64,000 nucleotides of DNA, from the NCBI GenBank assembly GCA_038731975.1, contig JAVYQJ010000001.1, positions 186,001-250,000 of the forward strand, written 5' to 3'. Below the pieces are notes generated by a model, which did not search any database, was not told where the DNA came from, and saw only the letters and a program-made list of their open reading frames with translations. Position 1 is the stretch's first letter, and the number at the start of each line of letters is the position of its first letter. Origin of the DNA: Thermofilaceae archaeon (GTDB lineage: Archaea; Thermoproteota; Thermoprotei; Thermofilales; Thermofilaceae). This document shows positions 3,902 through 45,381 of this stretch, piece by piece. Position numbers and translations under genes: made by a program.

Positions 3902-4001
3902 TGGTGCGGCCGCCGGGATTTGAACCCGGGTCGTCCGTGCGGCTGATGCCGCGCTCCGGCGCGGAGGGCCGGCGCCCTAGTCCAGACTAGGCGACGGCCG
4001 C
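3902..4001 (-). tRNA. tRNA-Gly(UCC) with 21-nt insertion in the variable region
   Basis: Read on the minus strand, a 7-bp acceptor stem (GCGGCCG/CGGCCGC), D arm, anticodon stem CCGGC/GCCGG, T arm CCGGG-TTCAAAT-CCCGG and encoded ACCA are all present. The anticodon loop CCTCCGC gives anticodon UCC, with C rather than U at position 33. After the anticodon stem an extra 21 nt (3935-3955, containing the hairpin GCGGC-ATCA-GCCGC) separates it from a normal 5-nt variable loop. I read this as a non-canonical archaeal intron. A near copy with anticodon CCC lies at 9365-9464 in opposite orientation. Confidence 0.88.
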
Positions 4002-9364: not shown

Positions 9365-9464
9365 GCGGCCGTCGCCTAGTCTGGTCCAGGGCGCCGGCCC
9401 CCCGCGCCGGAGCGCGGCATCAGCCGCACGGACGACCCGGGTTCAAATCCCGGCGGCCGCACCA
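9365..9464 (+). tRNA. tRNA-Gly(CCC) with 21-nt insertion in the variable region
   Basis: The structure is the same as the UCC isoacceptor: acceptor GCGGCCG/CGGCCGC, anticodon stem CCGGC/GCCGG, T arm CCGGG-TTCAAAT-CCCGG, and an encoded CCA. The loop CCCCCGC gives anticodon CCC with C at position 33. The same 21-nt insertion (9411-9431) sits between the anticodon stem and the variable loop; CGGA repeats at both ends leave the exact splice points ambiguous. It differs from the copy at 3902-4001 only in the D loop and anticodon. A TATA-like CATATAAG lies about 30 bp upstream. Confidence 0.88.
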
Positions 9465-28193: not shown

Positions 28194-28357
28194 CCAACCT
28201 CAACCTTGGGTGCCGCGCCGAACCTCACTCTCTCACATGCAACCCGGGAGACTGGAGTCTCTCGGGTGAAGGGCTGAGCGGCCAAGCTGGACGAGCTTGG
28301 CCGCTGTGAGCGCCGTCCATAGTTCGGCGGTGACGCTAACCGAGCGGGTACGGGCAA
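28194..28357 (+). other. 16S-23S spacer without tRNA
   Basis: The 164-nt spacer contains the 3' strand of the 16S stem (28200-28226), a CCCGGGAGACT/AGTCTCTCGGG hairpin near 28243-28266, a perfect 11-bp hairpin GCGGCCAAGCT/AGCTTGGCCGC (28278-28304), and the 5' strand of the 23S stem (28310-28332). There is no tRNA-Ala, which agrees with most Thermoproteota and differs from euryarchaeal operons. Confidence 0.88.
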
Positions 28358-31446
<3,089 letters not shown>

Positions 31447-31566
31447 GAGTTCGTACCCGCTCGGGCGTAAACACCGCCGAACTATGGGCGGCGCCCTTCC
31501 TCTTTACGCTCAATCCTCACACCTACGCTCAGCATACACAGTTCTAACTAACTTTCTTTAGAGATG
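31447..31566 (+). terminator. 23S trailer: 3' processing strand and probable terminator
   Basis: Bases 31472-31494 pair with 28310-28332 over 23 bp (one G-U), the bulge-helix-bulge stem for pre-23S. Pyrimidine- and T-rich runs follow (CCCTTCCTCTTTACG at 31493-31507 and CTAACTTTCTTT near 31550), the kind of signal where archaeal RNA polymerase terminates. Confidence 0.6.
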
Positions 31567-31578
31567 AAGTTTAAATAA
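31567..31578 (+). promoter_or_regulatory. Promoter of the ABC/MtmB-like/UxaA-like gene cluster
   Basis: AGTTTAAATAAC is a good archaeal TATA box centred about 27 bp before the GTG at 31599, which predicts a leaderless mRNA. No comparable box precedes the following three genes, consistent with one transcript. Confidence 0.55.
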
Positions 31579-31598: not shown

Positions 31599-33863
31599 GT
31601 GCCTAGTTTCAAGCTTTTGAAGCGCTACAGGTTCATTAACCTCTACTACCTCCTATTCCAGCATCGCTGGCTGCTCGTAGCAGTTCTTCTCCTCTCCCTC
31701 GTTTCTATGAGCTTGGGCATCGTTAGTCCGCTGGTTACGAGGGCTATCATAGACCAGGGCGTCATGAGGGGGGATTTCGGAGTTATCGCGGTCTACTCGG
31801 GGGTCCTCGTTCTGATCCTGGCGGCAGCCACGGCGCTGGGCGCGTTGAGGGGCTACTACCAGCAGGTCCTGAGCGGGCGCTTCGCGCTCGACCTGCGCTC
31901 GATGGTGTTCTCCAAGGCTATGGAGCTCGGCATGGAGCTGTACCAGTCCACCCAGGTGGGAGACCTCGTTACGCGCCTGTACGGTTACGTGGACAGGGTG
32001 CAGAGGTTCGTGCTCGACAGCTTCTCCACAATCCTGCTCAACTCGATCCAGTTAGCCGCCATGCTCGTCGTGGTTTTCGCGCTCAGCTGGAAGCTCGCGC
32101 TCATCATGCTGCTGCCCCTCCCCCTCTACATCTACGGCCTCGTCCACTACCAACCCAAGATGCGGACGCTCTTCACGAAGAGGTGGAGCAGGGTGAGCAG
32201 GATGTCCGCCTACGTATCCTCGCTTTTCAACGCGGTCCTCCTGGTCAAGCTGACGGGGAGGGAGAGGGAGGAGGCCCGCCGCTTCGGGAGCATGGCCGGC
32301 GACGTCTACGAGGCCGAAGTTGAGGTGGCCAGGCTTACGAGTAGAGTCTTCCCATGGCTCGGCTTCCTTCTTCAGCTGGCTTCCGTCGGGGTGACGTTCG
32401 TGGGCGGGGTCTTGATTACGCGGGGCGAGCTCACCTTCGGCACCCTGACCGCCTTCCTGGCCTACGTGTGGCAGGTTTACGGCCCGGTCCAGGCGATCGC
32501 CGGCCTCATCCCCCAGCTGGCCGAGGCTGAAGCAGCGTACGAGAAGCTGGCTGAGATCCTCGAGGCAAAGCCGAAGGTCTCCGAAGCTCCAGACGCCGTG
32601 GAGCTGAAGGTTAGGGGCGAGATTGAGATCGAGGACGTTTGGTTCGAGTACACGCCCGGAAGGCCCGTGCTAAAGGGCGTCAATCTCGTGATCAAGCCGG
32701 GTGACGTCGTCGGGATCGTCGGCCCCAACGGGTCGGGTAAGACGACACTGGTCAGGCTGCTCGTGAGGCTCTTCGACCCGACGAGCGGCCGAGTGCTCTA
32801 CGACGGGGTCGACCTCCGCAAGGTGAAGCTGTCGAGCTTGAGGGGGCAGATCATTCTCGTCCCCCAGGAGCCGCAGCTCCTGCCGGGCAGCGTAGCCTAC
32901 AACATCGTCTACGGCGTCGACGACCCAGACCCCATCTCGATGATCTACGCGGCCTGGCTGTGCGGTGCGCACCGGTTCATCATCGAGCTGCCCCTGGCTT
33001 ACGATAGCGACGTGGGCGAGCAGGGCAAGTACCTCTCCGGAGGCCAGCGGCAGCTCATCTGCCTGGCGAGAGCTGCTATGCTGAAGCCGAAGGTTCTGAT
33101 CCTCGACGAAGCGACGAGCAACGTCCACGTGGAGCTGGAGGAGGTCATCTTGACACGGCTCCTCGGCTACCTGAGGGACACGACCGTCATAGCGATATCG
33201 CACAGACCAACGCTGAACAAGTTCGTGAACCGGACAATCCTGATGAGCGACGGCCGCGTGCTGGGCGAGGATAAAGGGGGTCTCGGGGAGCGACCCGATC
33301 CTCCCCCTCCCCTGAGAGTGATCGATGCCAGCGAAATCCGCGTGATCGATAGGGGCGCGTGGCTGGAGGCGGAGCTGGACGGCGCGAGGTTGAAGGAGCT
33401 TAGAGCCAGGCTGCCCTTCCCCCTCAGCAACCCGCGTGTGCTCCTGCTCTACAGGAACCCCGACGAGCCGCTCATCATCAGGGACTGGACTCTGCTCGAC
33501 AAGGCCTCCAAGCTCGCCGTAGCTAAGCACCTAATTAAGGAGCACAAGATAGCCATTGCCCGACTAATCGACGTGATCCCTGTGGGAGGGAGGGGAGCGC
33601 GCATGGGGGCTACAGTGAAGCTGGAGAGCGACGAGGGTCTCATCGAGCTGGACGTTGCTCCCACAGCCGTGCTCTCGCTCGACGGGGCGCTCGTCGTCAC
33701 CACGTACGAGCGCACCTACATAATCGATCCCGAGAGGTCGAGTAAGGAGGCCCTCTGGAAAGCCTCCGCGCTCGCGTTCGAACCCCCTAGTCCATTCCGC
33801 AGCCACGGTGTACGCGTGCTGATGGATGTGCTAGCCGAAGCTCTAATAACTGGAGGAGCGTAG
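31599..33863 (+). CDS. ABC exporter (membrane domain + ATPase) fused to a DUF1854-like C-terminal domain
   Basis: This 754-residue protein has a type IV ABC exporter membrane domain with about six helices (residues about 25-300; LLVAVLLLSLVSMSLGIVSP). The ATPase domain has Walker A GPNGSGKTTLV (about 376), signature LSGGQRQLICLARAA (about 490) and Walker B VLILDEATSN (about 510), with H-switch AISHRP. The last ~190 residues (LPFPLSNPRVLLLYRN, VAKHLIKEHKIAIARLIDVI, VKLESDEGLIELDV, TYERTYIIDPE) follow the pattern of DUF1854, a domain linked in bacteria to ABC proteins. Substrate unknown. It leads the cluster with the MtmB-like gene, which starts 7 bp after its stop. Confidence 0.88.
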   Translation: MPSFKLLKRYRFINLYYLLFQHRWLLVAVLLLSLVSMSLGIVSPLVTRAIIDQGVMRGDFGVIAVYSGVLVLILAAATALGALRGYYQQVLSGRFALDLRSMVFSKAMELGMELYQSTQVGDLVTRLYGYVDRVQRFVLDSFSTILLNSIQLAAMLVVVFALSWKLALIMLLPLPLYIYGLVHYQPKMRTLFTKRWSRVSRMSAYVSSLFNAVLLVKLTGREREEARRFGSMAGDVYEAEVEVARLTSRVFPWLGFLLQLASVGVTFVGGVLITRGELTFGTLTAFLAYVWQVYGPVQAIAGLIPQLAEAEAAYEKLAEILEAKPKVSEAPDAVELKVRGEIEIEDVWFEYTPGRPVLKGVNLVIKPGDVVGIVGPNGSGKTTLVRLLVRLFDPTSGRVLYDGVDLRKVKLSSLRGQIILVPQEPQLLPGSVAYNIVYGVDDPDPISMIYAAWLCGAHRFIIELPLAYDSDVGEQGKYLSGGQRQLICLARAAMLKPKVLILDEATSNVHVELEEVILTRLLGYLRDTTVIAISHRPTLNKFVNRTILMSDGRVLGEDKGGLGERPDPPPPLRVIDASEIRVIDRGAWLEAELDGARLKELRARLPFPLSNPRVLLLYRNPDEPLIIRDWTLLDKASKLAVAKHLIKEHKIAIARLIDVIPVGGRGARMGATVKLESDEGLIELDVAPTAVLSLDGALVVTTYERTYIIDPERSSKEALWKASALAFEPPSPFRSHGVRVLMDVLAEALITGGA

Positions 33864-33870
33864 GCGGGGC

Positions 33871-35226
33871 GTGATACCACCCCTCGAGCTTGAGAGGAGG
33901 GCGCGTCAAGCCCCCCGCCTCGAGCAGCGCGCCTTCGACCTATCCCTCTCCCGGGCAATCGCCAACCTCGAAAGGGAGCACCAGATAGTCTACCACCCCG
34001 GTGAGATAGTGCCTGGCGACCCCTCGATGGTTAAGGACGTCTTTGAGGCTGGCTTGCAGCTCCTCCTCGAGTTAGGTGTCTACATCGTTGAGCTGGGCAG
34101 CGCAGCTAAGGTGAGCGAGGAGGAAGTCCGGGACGCTTTGAGCTCAGCCAAGGGCGAGGTGCAGCTAGGGGTTGGCGCCGATTCGAGGGTTCTCAGCGTT
34201 AGGAAGCCGGCCTCAAGGAGTAAGCCCTTCGTCTTCGGCGGCTACGCCGGCACTCCGACACCGGAGGAAATCTTCAAGCCGAGCGCGCTCAGCTACGCGC
34301 TCGAGCCCCTCGTCGACGCTCTCGACCACGGCAGCTTGACGAGCGTGGCCGGCTTAAGCCTTGCTCGCTCGGCCCCCAGCGAGGTTGAAGCGACGCTCCT
34401 CGAGATCCGGCTACTGAGGGAAGCCATCGAGGAGGCTGGCAGGCCTGGCCTGCACCTGCTCGCCTGCGAGAGCAGCGCGAGCGCGGTGGCCAACGCCGCC
34501 GCCATGGCTTCCGGTCTGCTGCGCAGGAGCGATGCGCAGCTGATCCCGATCCTCAATGAGATGAAGGTGGGCTACGACCAGCTGCTGAAGGCGCGCACCG
34601 GCCGCCTGTACGGTGTTCACAACGCGGCTCTGGTGGATCCGATAGTCGGCGGCTTCGCCAGGGGCGCGGCCGGCACAGCGATCTGCGCGGTAGCTGAGGC
34701 GCTAGCGTCGATGGTTGCCTACGGGGCCTCATACGTGCTGGTGCACCCCTACCACATCCACCTCAAGGCCACGAGCGCGAGGGAGTGCCTCTGGGTTGAG
34801 GCGGTTCTGGGCTTAGCTGGTGAGAGGCTCGGTGTACCCCTCGTCGGCGACGTGTGGCCGGCGAACGGGGGCGGCTGCGCGGAGATGCTGTACGAGATCG
34901 CCGCCAACTCCATCGTCGCGGCCTCCTGCGGCCTCAACCTGCTGGGACCCGCACCAGCCAACGGTGAGAAGCCGCACGGCTCTGGCCTGGAAGCGAGGTT
35001 CATGGCTGAGGTGGGCGCAGCGGCAGCAGCGCTCAAGCCCAGCAACGCAGCAGAGCTGGCGGGCGAGCTCCTCCGCTTCTACGAGAGCAGCCTCCGCAAC
35101 CCTAACCCGGGAGTCCCCTTCGGCGAGCTCTACGACTTGGAGAGGAGGGAGCCGGCCCCCTGGTGGGCCAGCGTATACAGGAGGGTGCGAGAGCACGTCG
35201 CGGATCTCGGCCTCGAGCTGGAGTGA
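33871..35226 (+). CDS. MtmB-family (monomethylamine methyltransferase) homologue lacking pyrrolysine
   Basis: This 451-residue protein aligns along its whole length with methanogen MtmB (458 residues): GEIVPGDPSMVKDVFEAGLQ, VEEVRDAL-type helix, QLGVGADSRVLSVRKPASRS, the GGYAGTPTPEEIFKPSALSY block, and C-terminal GCAEMLYEIAANSI and GLEARFMAEVGAAAAA. At the GRPG segment (190-193), where MtmB has pyrrolysine, this protein has Leu197; the nearby Glu (200) is kept. No in-frame TAG occurs. MtmB moves methyl groups from methylamine to a corrinoid protein through the Pyl ring, so this enzyme must use different chemistry. GTG start. Neighbours are an ABC exporter and a UxaA-type hydro-lyase. Confidence 0.85.
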   Translation: MIPPLELERRARQAPRLEQRAFDLSLSRAIANLEREHQIVYHPGEIVPGDPSMVKDVFEAGLQLLLELGVYIVELGSAAKVSEEEVRDALSSAKGEVQLGVGADSRVLSVRKPASRSKPFVFGGYAGTPTPEEIFKPSALSYALEPLVDALDHGSLTSVAGLSLARSAPSEVEATLLEIRLLREAIEEAGRPGLHLLACESSASAVANAAAMASGLLRRSDAQLIPILNEMKVGYDQLLKARTGRLYGVHNAALVDPIVGGFARGAAGTAICAVAEALASMVAYGASYVLVHPYHIHLKATSARECLWVEAVLGLAGERLGVPLVGDVWPANGGGCAEMLYEIAANSIVAASCGLNLLGPAPANGEKPHGSGLEARFMAEVGAAAAALKPSNAAELAGELLRFYESSLRNPNPGVPFGELYDLERREPAPWWASVYRRVREHVADLGLELE

Positions 35227-35257
35227 ACAGTTATTACCCGTAGCTCAGCTTACACAC

Positions 35258-35851
35258 GTGGCTCTACCGCAGGTGGTGTACAAGGCTGATGCCCGCGACA
35301 ACGTGGGAACGGCTCTAGCCCCGCTCGCTGAGGGGGTCGAGTACCCAGTTTACGAGGAGGGCAGAGGCATCGTTGGAAGCGTTAGGCCGATCGTGCCGAT
35401 CCCGCAGTGGCACAAGGTTGCGCTGGAAAAGCTGGAGGAAGGGAGCGAGGTTCGAAAGTTCGGCCACGTAATAGGGATCTGCGCCTGCAACATCGATGAG
35501 GGCTTCGTTGTCCACGTCACGAACGTCCTGCTCGACCCTGCCTTCGATCTCCCGAAGGCTCTCAGGGGCGGCTTCGTGCTTGGGACTGCTACTTCGCGGC
35601 TCGAAAGGGGGGATTTCGTGCGCGTCGGAGTGAACTTCCGACCCACACACCCACTCTTCAGGCAGCTCCCCTCACGCACGAAGGTGGGGGTCGCTGTGGC
35701 GCCCGTTCGAGAGGGGGGCACCCTAAGGCTGGGCAACATCGTTGAGCCGCCACCGGGCGTCCGGCTCAACGAGCGATACGTTAGGCTCGTGAAGGACTTC
35801 TACAGGTTCCTCCGCTCGAGCTTCATCGAGTTCGCCAGGGTGCAGGTGTGA
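35258..35851 (+). CDS. SAF-domain small subunit of a UxaA/SuyAB-type hydro-lyase
   Basis: The GTG at 35258 gives 197 residues; the open frame continues upstream only inside the MtmB-like gene. The first ~95 residues are a SAF domain of the altronate dehydratase/sulfolactate sulfo-lyase alpha type (DARDNVGTALAPLAEGVEYP, PIPQWHKVALEKLEEGSEVR, KFGHVIGICACNIDEGFVVH). A ~100-residue extension not usual in SuyA follows (LRGGFVLGTATSRLERGDFV). Its stop overlaps the next gene's ATG as TGATG, so the two subunits are translated together. SAF domains cap the active site of the large subunit. Confidence 0.75.
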   Translation: MALPQVVYKADARDNVGTALAPLAEGVEYPVYEEGRGIVGSVRPIVPIPQWHKVALEKLEEGSEVRKFGHVIGICACNIDEGFVVHVTNVLLDPAFDLPKALRGGFVLGTATSRLERGDFVRVGVNFRPTHPLFRQLPSRTKVGVAVAPVREGGTLRLGNIVEPPPGVRLNERYVRLVKDFYRFLRSSFIEFARVQV

Positions 35852-37131
35852 TGGCCGAAACGGTGCAGGCCTACTACAGGGAGTCGAGGAAGGTGTTCGG
35901 AGTCAGGAACCACGTCCTAATCCTGCCGACTACGCCCTGCGTGAACAGGTTGGCGGAGCTCATATACGAGGAGTTCAAGGGTGAGAGGTGGGGGGAGCAC
36001 GGGGAGAACAGGGTTGTCCTGGCGCGTCACAACGTGGGCTGCTGCCACGTTGGCTTCGATCTGGACGTAGCATTCGAAACCCTGCTCGGCATAGCTTCGC
36101 ACCCAAACGTTTACGGAGTACTGCTCGTCAGCCTGGGCTGCGGGCAGCTTTGTAAAAGACCCCTCGGATCCGGTGAAAGTAGGCTGGAGAACCTCCTCTC
36201 GTTTAAGCTCTACGAGAGGCTTGTGAAGAGGGGTGTTGAGGTACGCTGGGTGAACCTACAGGAGCCGTGGCCCGAGTCGGTGGACGGTTTCGAAAGAGTC
36301 GTCGAACTCGGCAGGAAGTTCGTGAGGGGGATGCTGGAGAGGGCCAGCTCGTTGAGGAGGACAGAGGCCCCGCTCAAACGCGTAGTGATAGGGGTCGGTA
36401 ACGGGGCATCTGACCCAACTTCGGGCCTTTTCGCCAACCCGGCTGTAGGGTATGTCGTTGAGAAGCTGGTTAGAGAGGGGGTCAGCGTGGTTTTCTGTCA
36501 GACAACTGAGGTTCTTGGCAGCGAGGGCCTACTATTGAGCAGGGTAGCTGACGAGACCGTTGCCAGGAAGCTGAGGAGGCTGCTCGAGGCGGCCTACGCT
36601 GTGAAGGAGGCTCTATCGGAGTACACGTATGAGACGGACCCGACCCCCGGCAACATCGCGAGCGGCATTTCAACTCTCGCTGAGAAATCTCTCGGTAGCG
36701 TGCTGAAGATCGGTAGAGACGCAAACGTGAAGATCCTCGACGTCCTTCCGTACGCTCGTCAAATCCCGCGGGGGAGAGGCGGCCTCTTCCTGATGGACTC
36801 TCCGGGCGAGGACATCCCAGCGATAACGGGGATGGTAGCAGGTGGGGCTCACGCGGTTATTTTCACGACGGGTTTAGGAACACCGGCGGGGTCCGTCGTG
36901 AGCCCTGTCCTGAAGGTGACCGCAAACAGGGATACCTACGCTAGGCTGGCCAGCATCATAGACGTCTACATCCCGGTAGAGGAGGTCTTCAATGGAAGGA
37001 GCCTCCGCGAGCTCGCTGTCGAAACGATCTACCCAGCGCTGCTAGACGTTTTGTCGGGAGAGCGGTTAGCGAAGAGCGAGGTCAACGGGCAGGCGGATCT
37101 GGATGTGAGGGGTTACTGGCTGCGGGCGTAG
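35851..37131 (+). CDS. UxaA-family (altronate dehydratase/galactarate dehydratase type) large subunit
   Basis: The product is 426 residues from the ATG at 35851 (a GTG at 35848 is also possible). It has the family opening VFGVRNHVLILPTTPCVNRL, then RHNVGCCHVGFDLD, HPNVYGVLLVSLGCGQLCKR and DSPGEDIPAITGMVAGGAHA and IFTTGLGTPAGSVVSPVLKV. Members are iron-dependent lyases that remove water from sugar acids, or sulfite from sulfolactate (SuyB). The conserved Cys residues could hold the metal centre. The substrate cannot be read from sequence; the partner genes suggest something other than plain sugar-acid breakdown. Confidence 0.82.
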   Translation: MAETVQAYYRESRKVFGVRNHVLILPTTPCVNRLAELIYEEFKGERWGEHGENRVVLARHNVGCCHVGFDLDVAFETLLGIASHPNVYGVLLVSLGCGQLCKRPLGSGESRLENLLSFKLYERLVKRGVEVRWVNLQEPWPESVDGFERVVELGRKFVRGMLERASSLRRTEAPLKRVVIGVGNGASDPTSGLFANPAVGYVVEKLVREGVSVVFCQTTEVLGSEGLLLSRVADETVARKLRRLLEAAYAVKEALSEYTYETDPTPGNIASGISTLAEKSLGSVLKIGRDANVKILDVLPYARQIPRGRGGLFLMDSPGEDIPAITGMVAGGAHAVIFTTGLGTPAGSVVSPVLKVTANRDTYARLASIIDVYIPVEEVFNGRSLRELAVETIYPALLDVLSGERLAKSEVNGQADLDVRGYWLRA

Positions 37132-37132
37132 G

Positions 37133-38032
37133 CTAGGGGTGCGCCACCCCCTTCAGCTCAACAACAGGTGGTAAGCGGCGCTTATGGGCTGAGCTTTCCA
37201 CCCTGGACAGGATGCTCCTCACTTTCTCATAAGGAATTCCCGTCTCCTCAACAACGCGCTCAGGAGCGTATCCGAGGTCGAAAACGGCGTACAACACCAC
37301 GTCCGCCACGTCGTAAGTGAACCCCAACTCACTCTCCGCCATTTGCCCAGGCCACAGCCTCGGACTACTCGGCTTCAGGGCGATTCGATCGGGCAGCCCC
37401 AAGTGCTTAGCGAGCCCCCGGACCTGGCTCTTGTAGAGGTCTCCAATGGGTAGAAGGTCGGCAGCCCCATCGCCGTACTTAGTGAAGTAGCCGAGCAGGA
37501 GCTCGCTGCGGTCGCCGCTGCCGAGCACGATCCCCCCCAGCCTGTTAGCAACGTAGTACAGCATCAGCATGCGGATCCTAGCCTTCAGATTACCCAGCGC
37601 CTTCAAATCGGTCTGGTCGAAGAGAGGCACGCTCGTAGATGCAGCCGCTACGAGAGTGTCGATTGGAGCCTCGTGGAACCTGATGTTCAAGTGGCGGACC
37701 AGCCACCTGGCGTCTTCCAGATCCTCACCGGGAGTGGAGGTTGAATCGGGCATTATCAGCGCGACGACCCGCTCCGGCCCTACAGCTCGCGCCGCGAGGG
37801 TGGTCACAACTGACGAGTCTATGCCGCCGCTGAGCCCTAGGACGTAACAGCCAGCTCCGGCCTCTTCAAGGTACTCCCGCAAGTAGCCGGAAATTCTCCT
37901 CTCTACGGATGCGTAATCAATGGAGGTTATCCTTTCGTAGAATCTACGCCAACCAGAACCCCTGTCCCTATCGCCCTCGAGCGGGGTACTCAGAGATTTT
38001 TCACGAGACTGGGCGTTCATATCGCCGTGCAA
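37133..38032 (-). CDS. nadE: NH3-dependent NAD+ synthetase
   Basis: This 299-residue protein has the PP-loop VLGLSGGIDSSVVTTLAARA (about residues 63-82), ALIMPDSTSTPGEDLEDARW, GSGDRSELLLGYFTKYGDGA and the PSPRLWPGQMAESELGFTYD segment. It adenylates nicotinic-acid adenine dinucleotide and aminates it with ammonia; no glutaminase domain is present, as usual in archaea. It is convergent with the UxaA-like gene, with a 1-bp gap between stops. The first ~35 residues are not conserved, so initiation may be further in. Confidence 0.94.
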   Translation of the reverse strand: MHGDMNAQSREKSLSTPLEGDRDRGSGWRRFYERITSIDYASVERRISGYLREYLEEAGAGCYVLGLSGGIDSSVVTTLAARAVGPERVVALIMPDSTSTPGEDLEDARWLVRHLNIRFHEAPIDTLVAAASTSVPLFDQTDLKALGNLKARIRMLMLYYVANRLGGIVLGSGDRSELLLGYFTKYGDGAADLLPIGDLYKSQVRGLAKHLGLPDRIALKPSSPRLWPGQMAESELGFTYDVADVVLYAVFDLGYAPERVVEETGIPYEKVRSILSRVESSAHKRRLPPVVELKGVAHP

Positions 38033-45269: not shown

Positions 45270-45381
45270 TGGTGGGGCCGCCGGGACTTGAACCCGGGTC
45301 CCTCCGCGGCGCTCAACCTACGCGGGATCCCGAGGCTAAGCCTCCCGAGCCGCGCATCCTACCAAGCTGGACTACGGCCCC
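45270..45381 (-). tRNA. tRNA-Pro(CGG) with ~33-nt intron
   Basis: On the minus strand: acceptor GGGGCCG/CGGCCCC, D arm GTCC/GGAT, anticodon stem CGCGG/CCGCG, loop CTCGGG with anticodon CGG, T arm CCGGG-TTCAAGT-CCCGG and encoded CCA. About 33 nt (45311-45343) separate position 37 from the 3' half of the anticodon stem, fitting a canonical-site intron. The variable loop as parsed has 7 nt, longer than the usual 5, so a second small insertion or a shifted stem is possible. Confidence 0.8.

Follow-up and report, generated by a model that had tools for sequence, protein, structure and literature searches.

The DNA considered here, a window of 64,000 nucleotides, is from the 1.85 Mb metagenome-assembled genome (MAG; G000) of a hot-spring archaeon of the Thermofilaceae, the closest named relatives of which are Thermofilum, Thermofilaceae and Thermofilales MAGs. 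Four genes follow one another on its (+) strand and encode an ABC transporter, a homologue of MtmB, and two proteins, UxN and UxC, that correspond to the two parts of UxaA/GarD-type lyases. They are separated by 7 bp, then by 31 bp, and the last two overlap by 1 bp. A first-pass annotation of the window had these spacings and the gene identities right, namely an ABC protein with DUF1854 (for which the direct match is weak), a pyrrolysine-less MtmB and a split UxaA-type pair, and it correctly placed the unit between the rRNA operon and a convergent nadE, with a TATA-like box in front. The position of this element would fit a leaderless transcript. The features are as follows.

28357..31447, + strand: 23S rRNA gene (Rfam RF02540), the upstream boundary, outside the unit
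31570..31578, + strand: TATA-like box TTTAAATAA, by sequence, ~25 nt ahead of the first GTG
31599..33863, + strand: ABC half-transporter of predicted exporter type with a fused C-terminal DUF1854-like domain, 754 residues (PF00664 and PF00005, ABC_membrane and ABC_tran; orthologues)
33279..33860, + strand: DUF1854-like C-terminal domain of the ABC protein (direct match weak, backed by transitivity)
33871..35226, + strand: non-pyrrolysine MtmB homologue, 451 residues (PF05369, E 1.3e-83; PDB 1l2q, E 2.9e-58; tree)
34459..34461, + strand: Leu197 codon of MtmB, at the position of pyrrolysine 202 (alignment)
34849..34857, + strand: Asp327-Val-Trp329 of MtmB, opposite pyrrolysine-pocket residues Gln333 and Tyr335 (alignment)
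35258..35851, + strand: UxN, predicted UxaA/GarD-type SAF N-domain subunit with ~100 extra residues, 197 residues (predicted structure, homologue comparison)
35851..37131, + strand: UxC, predicted UxaA/GarD-type catalytic subunit, 426 residues (PF04295 and PF20629; PDB 6u7l)
36151..36153, + strand: Cys101 codon of UxC, within the subfamily-specific insertion LGCGQ[LFM]CK (alignment)
36400..36402, + strand: Asn184 codon of UxC, in place of the Cys of a CGxSD motif (alignment)
36499..36501, + strand: Gln217 codon of UxC, in place of an otherwise invariant Glu (alignment)
37133..38032, - strand: nadE (PF02540), convergent neighbour, outside the transcript

Conservation of the neighbourhood

Homologues of each of the four proteins occur in other MAGs at ~41-79% identity. 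The UxC alignment was used to scan 84,980 species genomes by means of two conserved peptides, so that more distant members may have escaped; eight UxN-UxC loci came up beyond that of the window, in seven Thermoprotei MAGs and in the Asgard archaeon Candidatus Baldrarchaeum yapensis. UxN adjoins UxC in all nine. MtmB adjoins the pair in five of the nine, from three genera (the window, SKYB99 (G275), RSNS8 (G200), S1_Bin_224 (G236) and B17_G15 (G300)), and the ABC gene does so in six, these five and KUA_Bin21 (G230); in all six a convergent nadE follows UxN-UxC. The order ABC-MtmB-UxN-UxC recurs in RSNS8 and SKYB99, which are of the window's genus, and in S1_Bin_224 of genus g3, where the contig end cuts the ABC gene. 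In B17_G15 the ABC gene is on the strand opposite to its UxN-UxC neighbours, and in KUA_Bin21 ABC-UxN-UxC-nadE is kept with MtmB outside the cluster, as the last gene of an energy-coupling factor (ECF) importer operon. AUK141 (G284), B15_G2 and Baldrarchaeum have UxN-UxC with neither ABC nor MtmB beside it, and AUK141 has no MtmB anywhere in its genome. Genomes of the sister genus g2 have no UxaA-type gene, and their MtmB stands directly downstream of a corrinoid-protein gene.

The four genes had at first been taken for a single system, a reading expected to fail if they parted in related genomes. The recurring order bears it out in part, but the inverted ABC gene of B17_G15, the displaced MtmB of KUA_Bin21, the three loci with UxN-UxC only and genus g2 do not. 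Because the parts occur separately in KUA_Bin21, AUK141, B15_G2, Baldrarchaeum and genus g2, the unit is probably a lineage-specific Thermofilaceae neighbourhood of separable modules and not an obligate four-gene machine.

The predicted UxN-UxC lyase pair

UxN has no Pfam match. The N-terminal half of its AlphaFold model (predicted local distance difference test, pLDDT, 87) matches the N-domain of altronate hydrolase (PDB 3k3s) at E 1.1e-5 with a TM-score, by target length, of 0.81-0.82, and the ~100 residues beyond this SAF-type half are conserved in all nine loci. UxC matches PF04295 (GD_AH_second) at E 5.5e-23 and PF20629 (GD_AH_C) at E 1.4e-60, and its best PDB match by sequence and by fold is GarD (6u7l), keeping in mind that the UxC model is poor (pLDDT 55), too poor for use in placing metal ligands. 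To judge from these domain and model matches, UxN-UxC is a heteromeric lyase of the known UxaA/GarD superfamily. With the UxaA/GarD dehydratases (PDB 6u7l and 3k3s; PMC6336799) the pair shares an N domain of SAF type and the two C-terminal domains of GarD type, but it consists of two polypeptides, its N subunit is ~100 residues longer, and it has Asn184 instead of Cys, Gln217 instead of Glu and a new Cys101.

All nine members carry both replacements, whereas the phylum's 29 other PF20629 proteins have neither, Cys at 184 and Glu at 217 being invariant among them. The insertion with Cys101-Lys102 is likewise common to all nine UxC proteins, and in the UxC tree the nine loci form a single clade with 100/100 support, whose branch measures 1.07 changes per site. 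Four cysteines conserved across the superfamily, except in sulfolactate sulfo-lyase, are the proposed iron ligands (PMC6336799); by an inferred mapping to these residues, UxC has three of the four, Cys30, Cys64 and Cys97, with Asn in place of the one at 184 and Cys101 in addition. The earlier suggestion of a sulfonated substrate found no specific support. Sulfolactate sulfo-lyase, SuyAB, belongs to the same superfamily and, like the separate UxN and UxC reading frames, has its N part on a small subunit and its C part on a large one. This split, however, occurs in a heteromeric fuconate dehydratase too (PMC6336799), and on the same mapping three of the cysteines reported as lacking in SuyAB are retained in UxC.

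As an invariant Cys and an invariant Glu have been lost and Cys101 is new, the substrate or chemistry of UxC should differ from those of the known subfamilies. The classical uronate isomerase route was considered and set aside, UxaC being absent from all 17 genomes of the window's family. The novelty lies in the UxN-UxC branch, within an enzyme family already known, and this branch amounts to a natural experiment on the residues needed by UxaA/GarD lyases.

MtmB, its possible partners and the transporters

Against PF05369 the MtmB of the window scores 281.8 bits (cut-off 25), residues 9-448 falling on profile positions 8-450, and its homology to pyrrolysine MtmB (PDB 1l2q) also extends over the whole length. 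Unlike the latter it has no pyrrolysine, Leu197 standing at that position with no in-frame stop codon, and all five pocket positions are altered: pyrrolysine 202 and Glu229, Glu259, Gln333 and Tyr335, the residues around it in the MtmB structure, are replaced by Leu, Leu, Leu, Asp and Trp. Because the whole pyrrolysine pocket is gone, the protein is most likely a non-pyrrolysine corrinoid N-methyltransferase acting in trans, and the Asp and Trp would suit a cationic methylated nitrogen.

PF05369 is present in 43 of 300 genomes of the phylum and in 14 of the 17 of the family. In the MtmB tree the window's copy and the remaining cluster copies group together (100/99) and are nested in a Thermofilaceae clade (100/100); copies from families f13 and f11 that stand next to a corrinoid gene make up the group nearest to this clade. 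Only one fixed residue difference separates the cluster copies from other Thermofilaceae copies, and therefore adjacency to UxN-UxC has left no visible change in the enzyme. This distinct clade is a new element; its fixed pocket Asp and Trp, and its genomic settings, next to a corrinoid gene, next to a lyase pair or at an importer operon, narrow the search for a substrate. Though non-pyrrolysine MtmB proteins are common in archaea, function has been demonstrated for one only, MtqB of Methanococcoides methylutens Q3c, which demethylates tetramethylammonium and choline (PMC13044021). MtqB, likewise a pyrrolysine-less member of the MtmB family, has a corrinoid protein as partner and quaternary amines as substrates, but its cognate MtqC is at a neighbouring locus tag, its host is a methanogen and its acceptor is coenzyme M, whereas the corrinoid gene of the window's genome is on another contig.

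Among other MtmB genes, those of family f13 often stand in tandem pairs, and in another genome (G193:C78; L023) two MtmB domains lie in one open frame of 961 residues, like fused tandem non-pyrrolysine genes. A 103-residue protein with no Pfam or NCBIfam match is encoded directly upstream of a corrinoid-MtmB pair in G072 (L034 8649-8960). The KUA_Bin21 copy had been suspected of being a pseudogene, but its break is a run of N, a scaffold gap within the gene.

That no corrinoid or activating protein is nearby, as had been claimed, holds for the locus but not for the genome, which has exactly one corrinoid protein (PF02607, DLHDIG motif; G000:C2:54481-55131), on a different contig from the window, and adjoining it a gene for the activator RACo (C2:55159-56874). 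Since both are encoded, a corrinoid-free MtmB is an unnecessary assumption. There are also ten URO-D-family proteins, their genes scattered over contigs C4, C8, C10, C14, C18, C41, C43 and C58 (L132-L141), several of them near genes for glycoside hydrolases of families 2, 4 and 38. In the family, each of the seven genomes with UxN-UxC has 8-13 URO-D proteins and each of the ten without has 0-1, a correlation that follows genera and is weak evidence by itself. The Mto methoxydotrophy system of Archaeoglobus fulgidus (PMC8359953) similarly combines a corrinoid protein, a RACo-type activator and URO-D-family proteins; differences are that the window's family has no MtrH-family protein, that the URO-D genes are scattered and that MtmB is not part of Mto.

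In KUA_Bin21 the ECF operon encodes S, T and double ATPase components, and the start of MtmB overlaps the ATPase gene by 4 bp. MtmB there lies between this gene and one for a 2-hydroxyacid dehydrogenase, two genes that adjoin each other in the window's genome, S1_Bin_224, SKYB99 and RSNS8. The importer operon is divergent from an adenine-phosphoribosyltransferase-like gene (L033 1620-6212; L186-L196), an arrangement conserved in the 14 Thermofilaceae genomes with MtmB. Among the family genomes, all 14 with MtmB have the S component, which is missing from the three without; this co-occurrence too follows genera, and taken alone is weak evidence. A nicotinamidase assignment for the isochorismatase-family protein encoded beside MtmB in KUA_Bin21 was downgraded, since models for biuret amidohydrolase and RutB give this protein better scores.

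The ABC protein is, by its family, a half-transporter of the exporter type that carries a diverged DUF1854-like domain, its direction of transport presumably being outward as in its relatives. Its C-terminal ~190 residues match DUF1854 weakly (E 0.11, 12.7 bits, cut-off 26.8; best relative E 0.005), but with a profile of this domain a stand-alone paralogue was recovered from the window's genome at E 5.7e-13; the paralogue itself hits DUF1854 at 2.1e-31, and an orthologue (L166) does so with its C-terminus at 2e-10. The DUF1854-like domain is present in 29 of 300 phylum genomes; ABC-DUF1854 exporters are widespread in Thermoproteota and not specific to the four-gene unit. Against NF052233, the NCBIfam model for a cyanophycin-associated ABC transporter, the window's protein scores 325.8 (cut-off 880). 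Just beyond the window a second ABC exporter gene is followed by a separate, overlapping DUF1854 gene (L170 5053-7738; G000:C1:252053-254738); exporter core and DUF1854-like domain are common to that pair and the window's protein, but in the latter the domain is fused and has diverged below the Pfam cut-off. In genome G015 (L166 4396-8788; L169) an ABC-DUF1854 orthologue is beside nicotinate phosphoribosyltransferase and nicotinamidase-like genes, with similar-looking neighbours in G055.

Competing explanations, and tRNA genes elsewhere

The preferred explanation, which is probably correct, is one of separable modules. MtmB would demethylate a cationic N-methyl compound, probably a quaternary one, with the Co(I) of the genome's single corrinoid protein receiving the methyl group; the adjacent RACo would keep that protein reduced. 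UxN, contributing a SAF-type domain, and UxC, with its three presumed iron-binding cysteines, would form a heteromeric lyase acting on a small hydroxy acid, from which it would eliminate water or some other beta leaving group. The ABC protein would be a half-transporter, presumably a homodimeric exporter of the DUF1854-associated kind. Several observations weigh against this. AUK141, without MtmB, has an orthologous corrinoid gene flanked by URO-D-type genes, and because of this the corrinoid protein of the window's genome may serve URO-D-type proteins rather than, or as well as, MtmB; the corrinoid tree joins it to the AUK141 protein (93/89) and not to the MtmB-adjacent proteins of genus g2. 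No methyl acceptor was found: MtrH was rejected, being absent from all 17 family genomes, and a MetE-type acceptor (PF01717) has no match in the window's genome and weak matches in some relatives. Also, the presence of MtmB beside UxN-UxC in five loci and three genera could signify a functional tie.

It is from this last point, from the similar position of the ABC gene in six loci and from the tight same-strand spacing in the window that the idea of one undescribed pathway draws, with MtmB demethylating a small methylated compound, UxN-UxC handling the resulting acid and the ABC protein exporting the product. Such a pathway is not required by the data, and is unlikely given that the parts are found apart in KUA_Bin21, AUK141, B15_G2, Baldrarchaeum and genus g2, that the ABC gene is on the other strand in B17_G15 and that the clustered arrangement goes back to one lineage. 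Rather unlikely is the more specific proposal that UxN-UxC is a further subfamily with a rebuilt metal site (Cys184 lost, Cys101 gained, Glu217 changed to Gln) and a substrate new to the superfamily, coupled in Thermofilaceae to MtmB, which would demethylate an N-methylated precursor in a corrinoid-dependent step. The URO-D counts, and the URO-D genes near glycoside hydrolases, would accord with a setting of plant polysaccharide use, with UxN-UxC as a sugar-acid dehydratase and with MtmB and the many URO-D-type proteins demethylating the same feedstock via one corrinoid protein; yet the counts track genera and could reflect common descent, UxaC is missing, a methyltransferase role of these URO-D proteins is only presumed, and with the changes at the UxC active site as well this setting is improbable. 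Improbable too is salvage of methylated heterocycles, with MtmB demethylating imported N-methylnicotinate, a methylated nucleobase or the like and so feeding NAD or purine salvage. The convergent nadE, the importer operon of KUA_Bin21 with its phosphoribosyltransferase-like neighbour, the distribution of the S component and the G015 neighbours all point that way, but every one of these links is confined to a single lineage and was found post hoc. In addition, nadE is no part of the transcript, a nicotinamidase identity for the isochorismatase-family neighbour is uncertain, and two of the three MtmB-less genomes are <80% complete and of the same genus.

Elsewhere in the window, a tRNA gene of ~109 nt at 45273-45381 (- strand) was found by Rfam and missed by ARAGORN, and tRNA-Gly genes of ~100 nt are at 3902-4001 and 9365-9464; like these, the longer one may have an intron inside.

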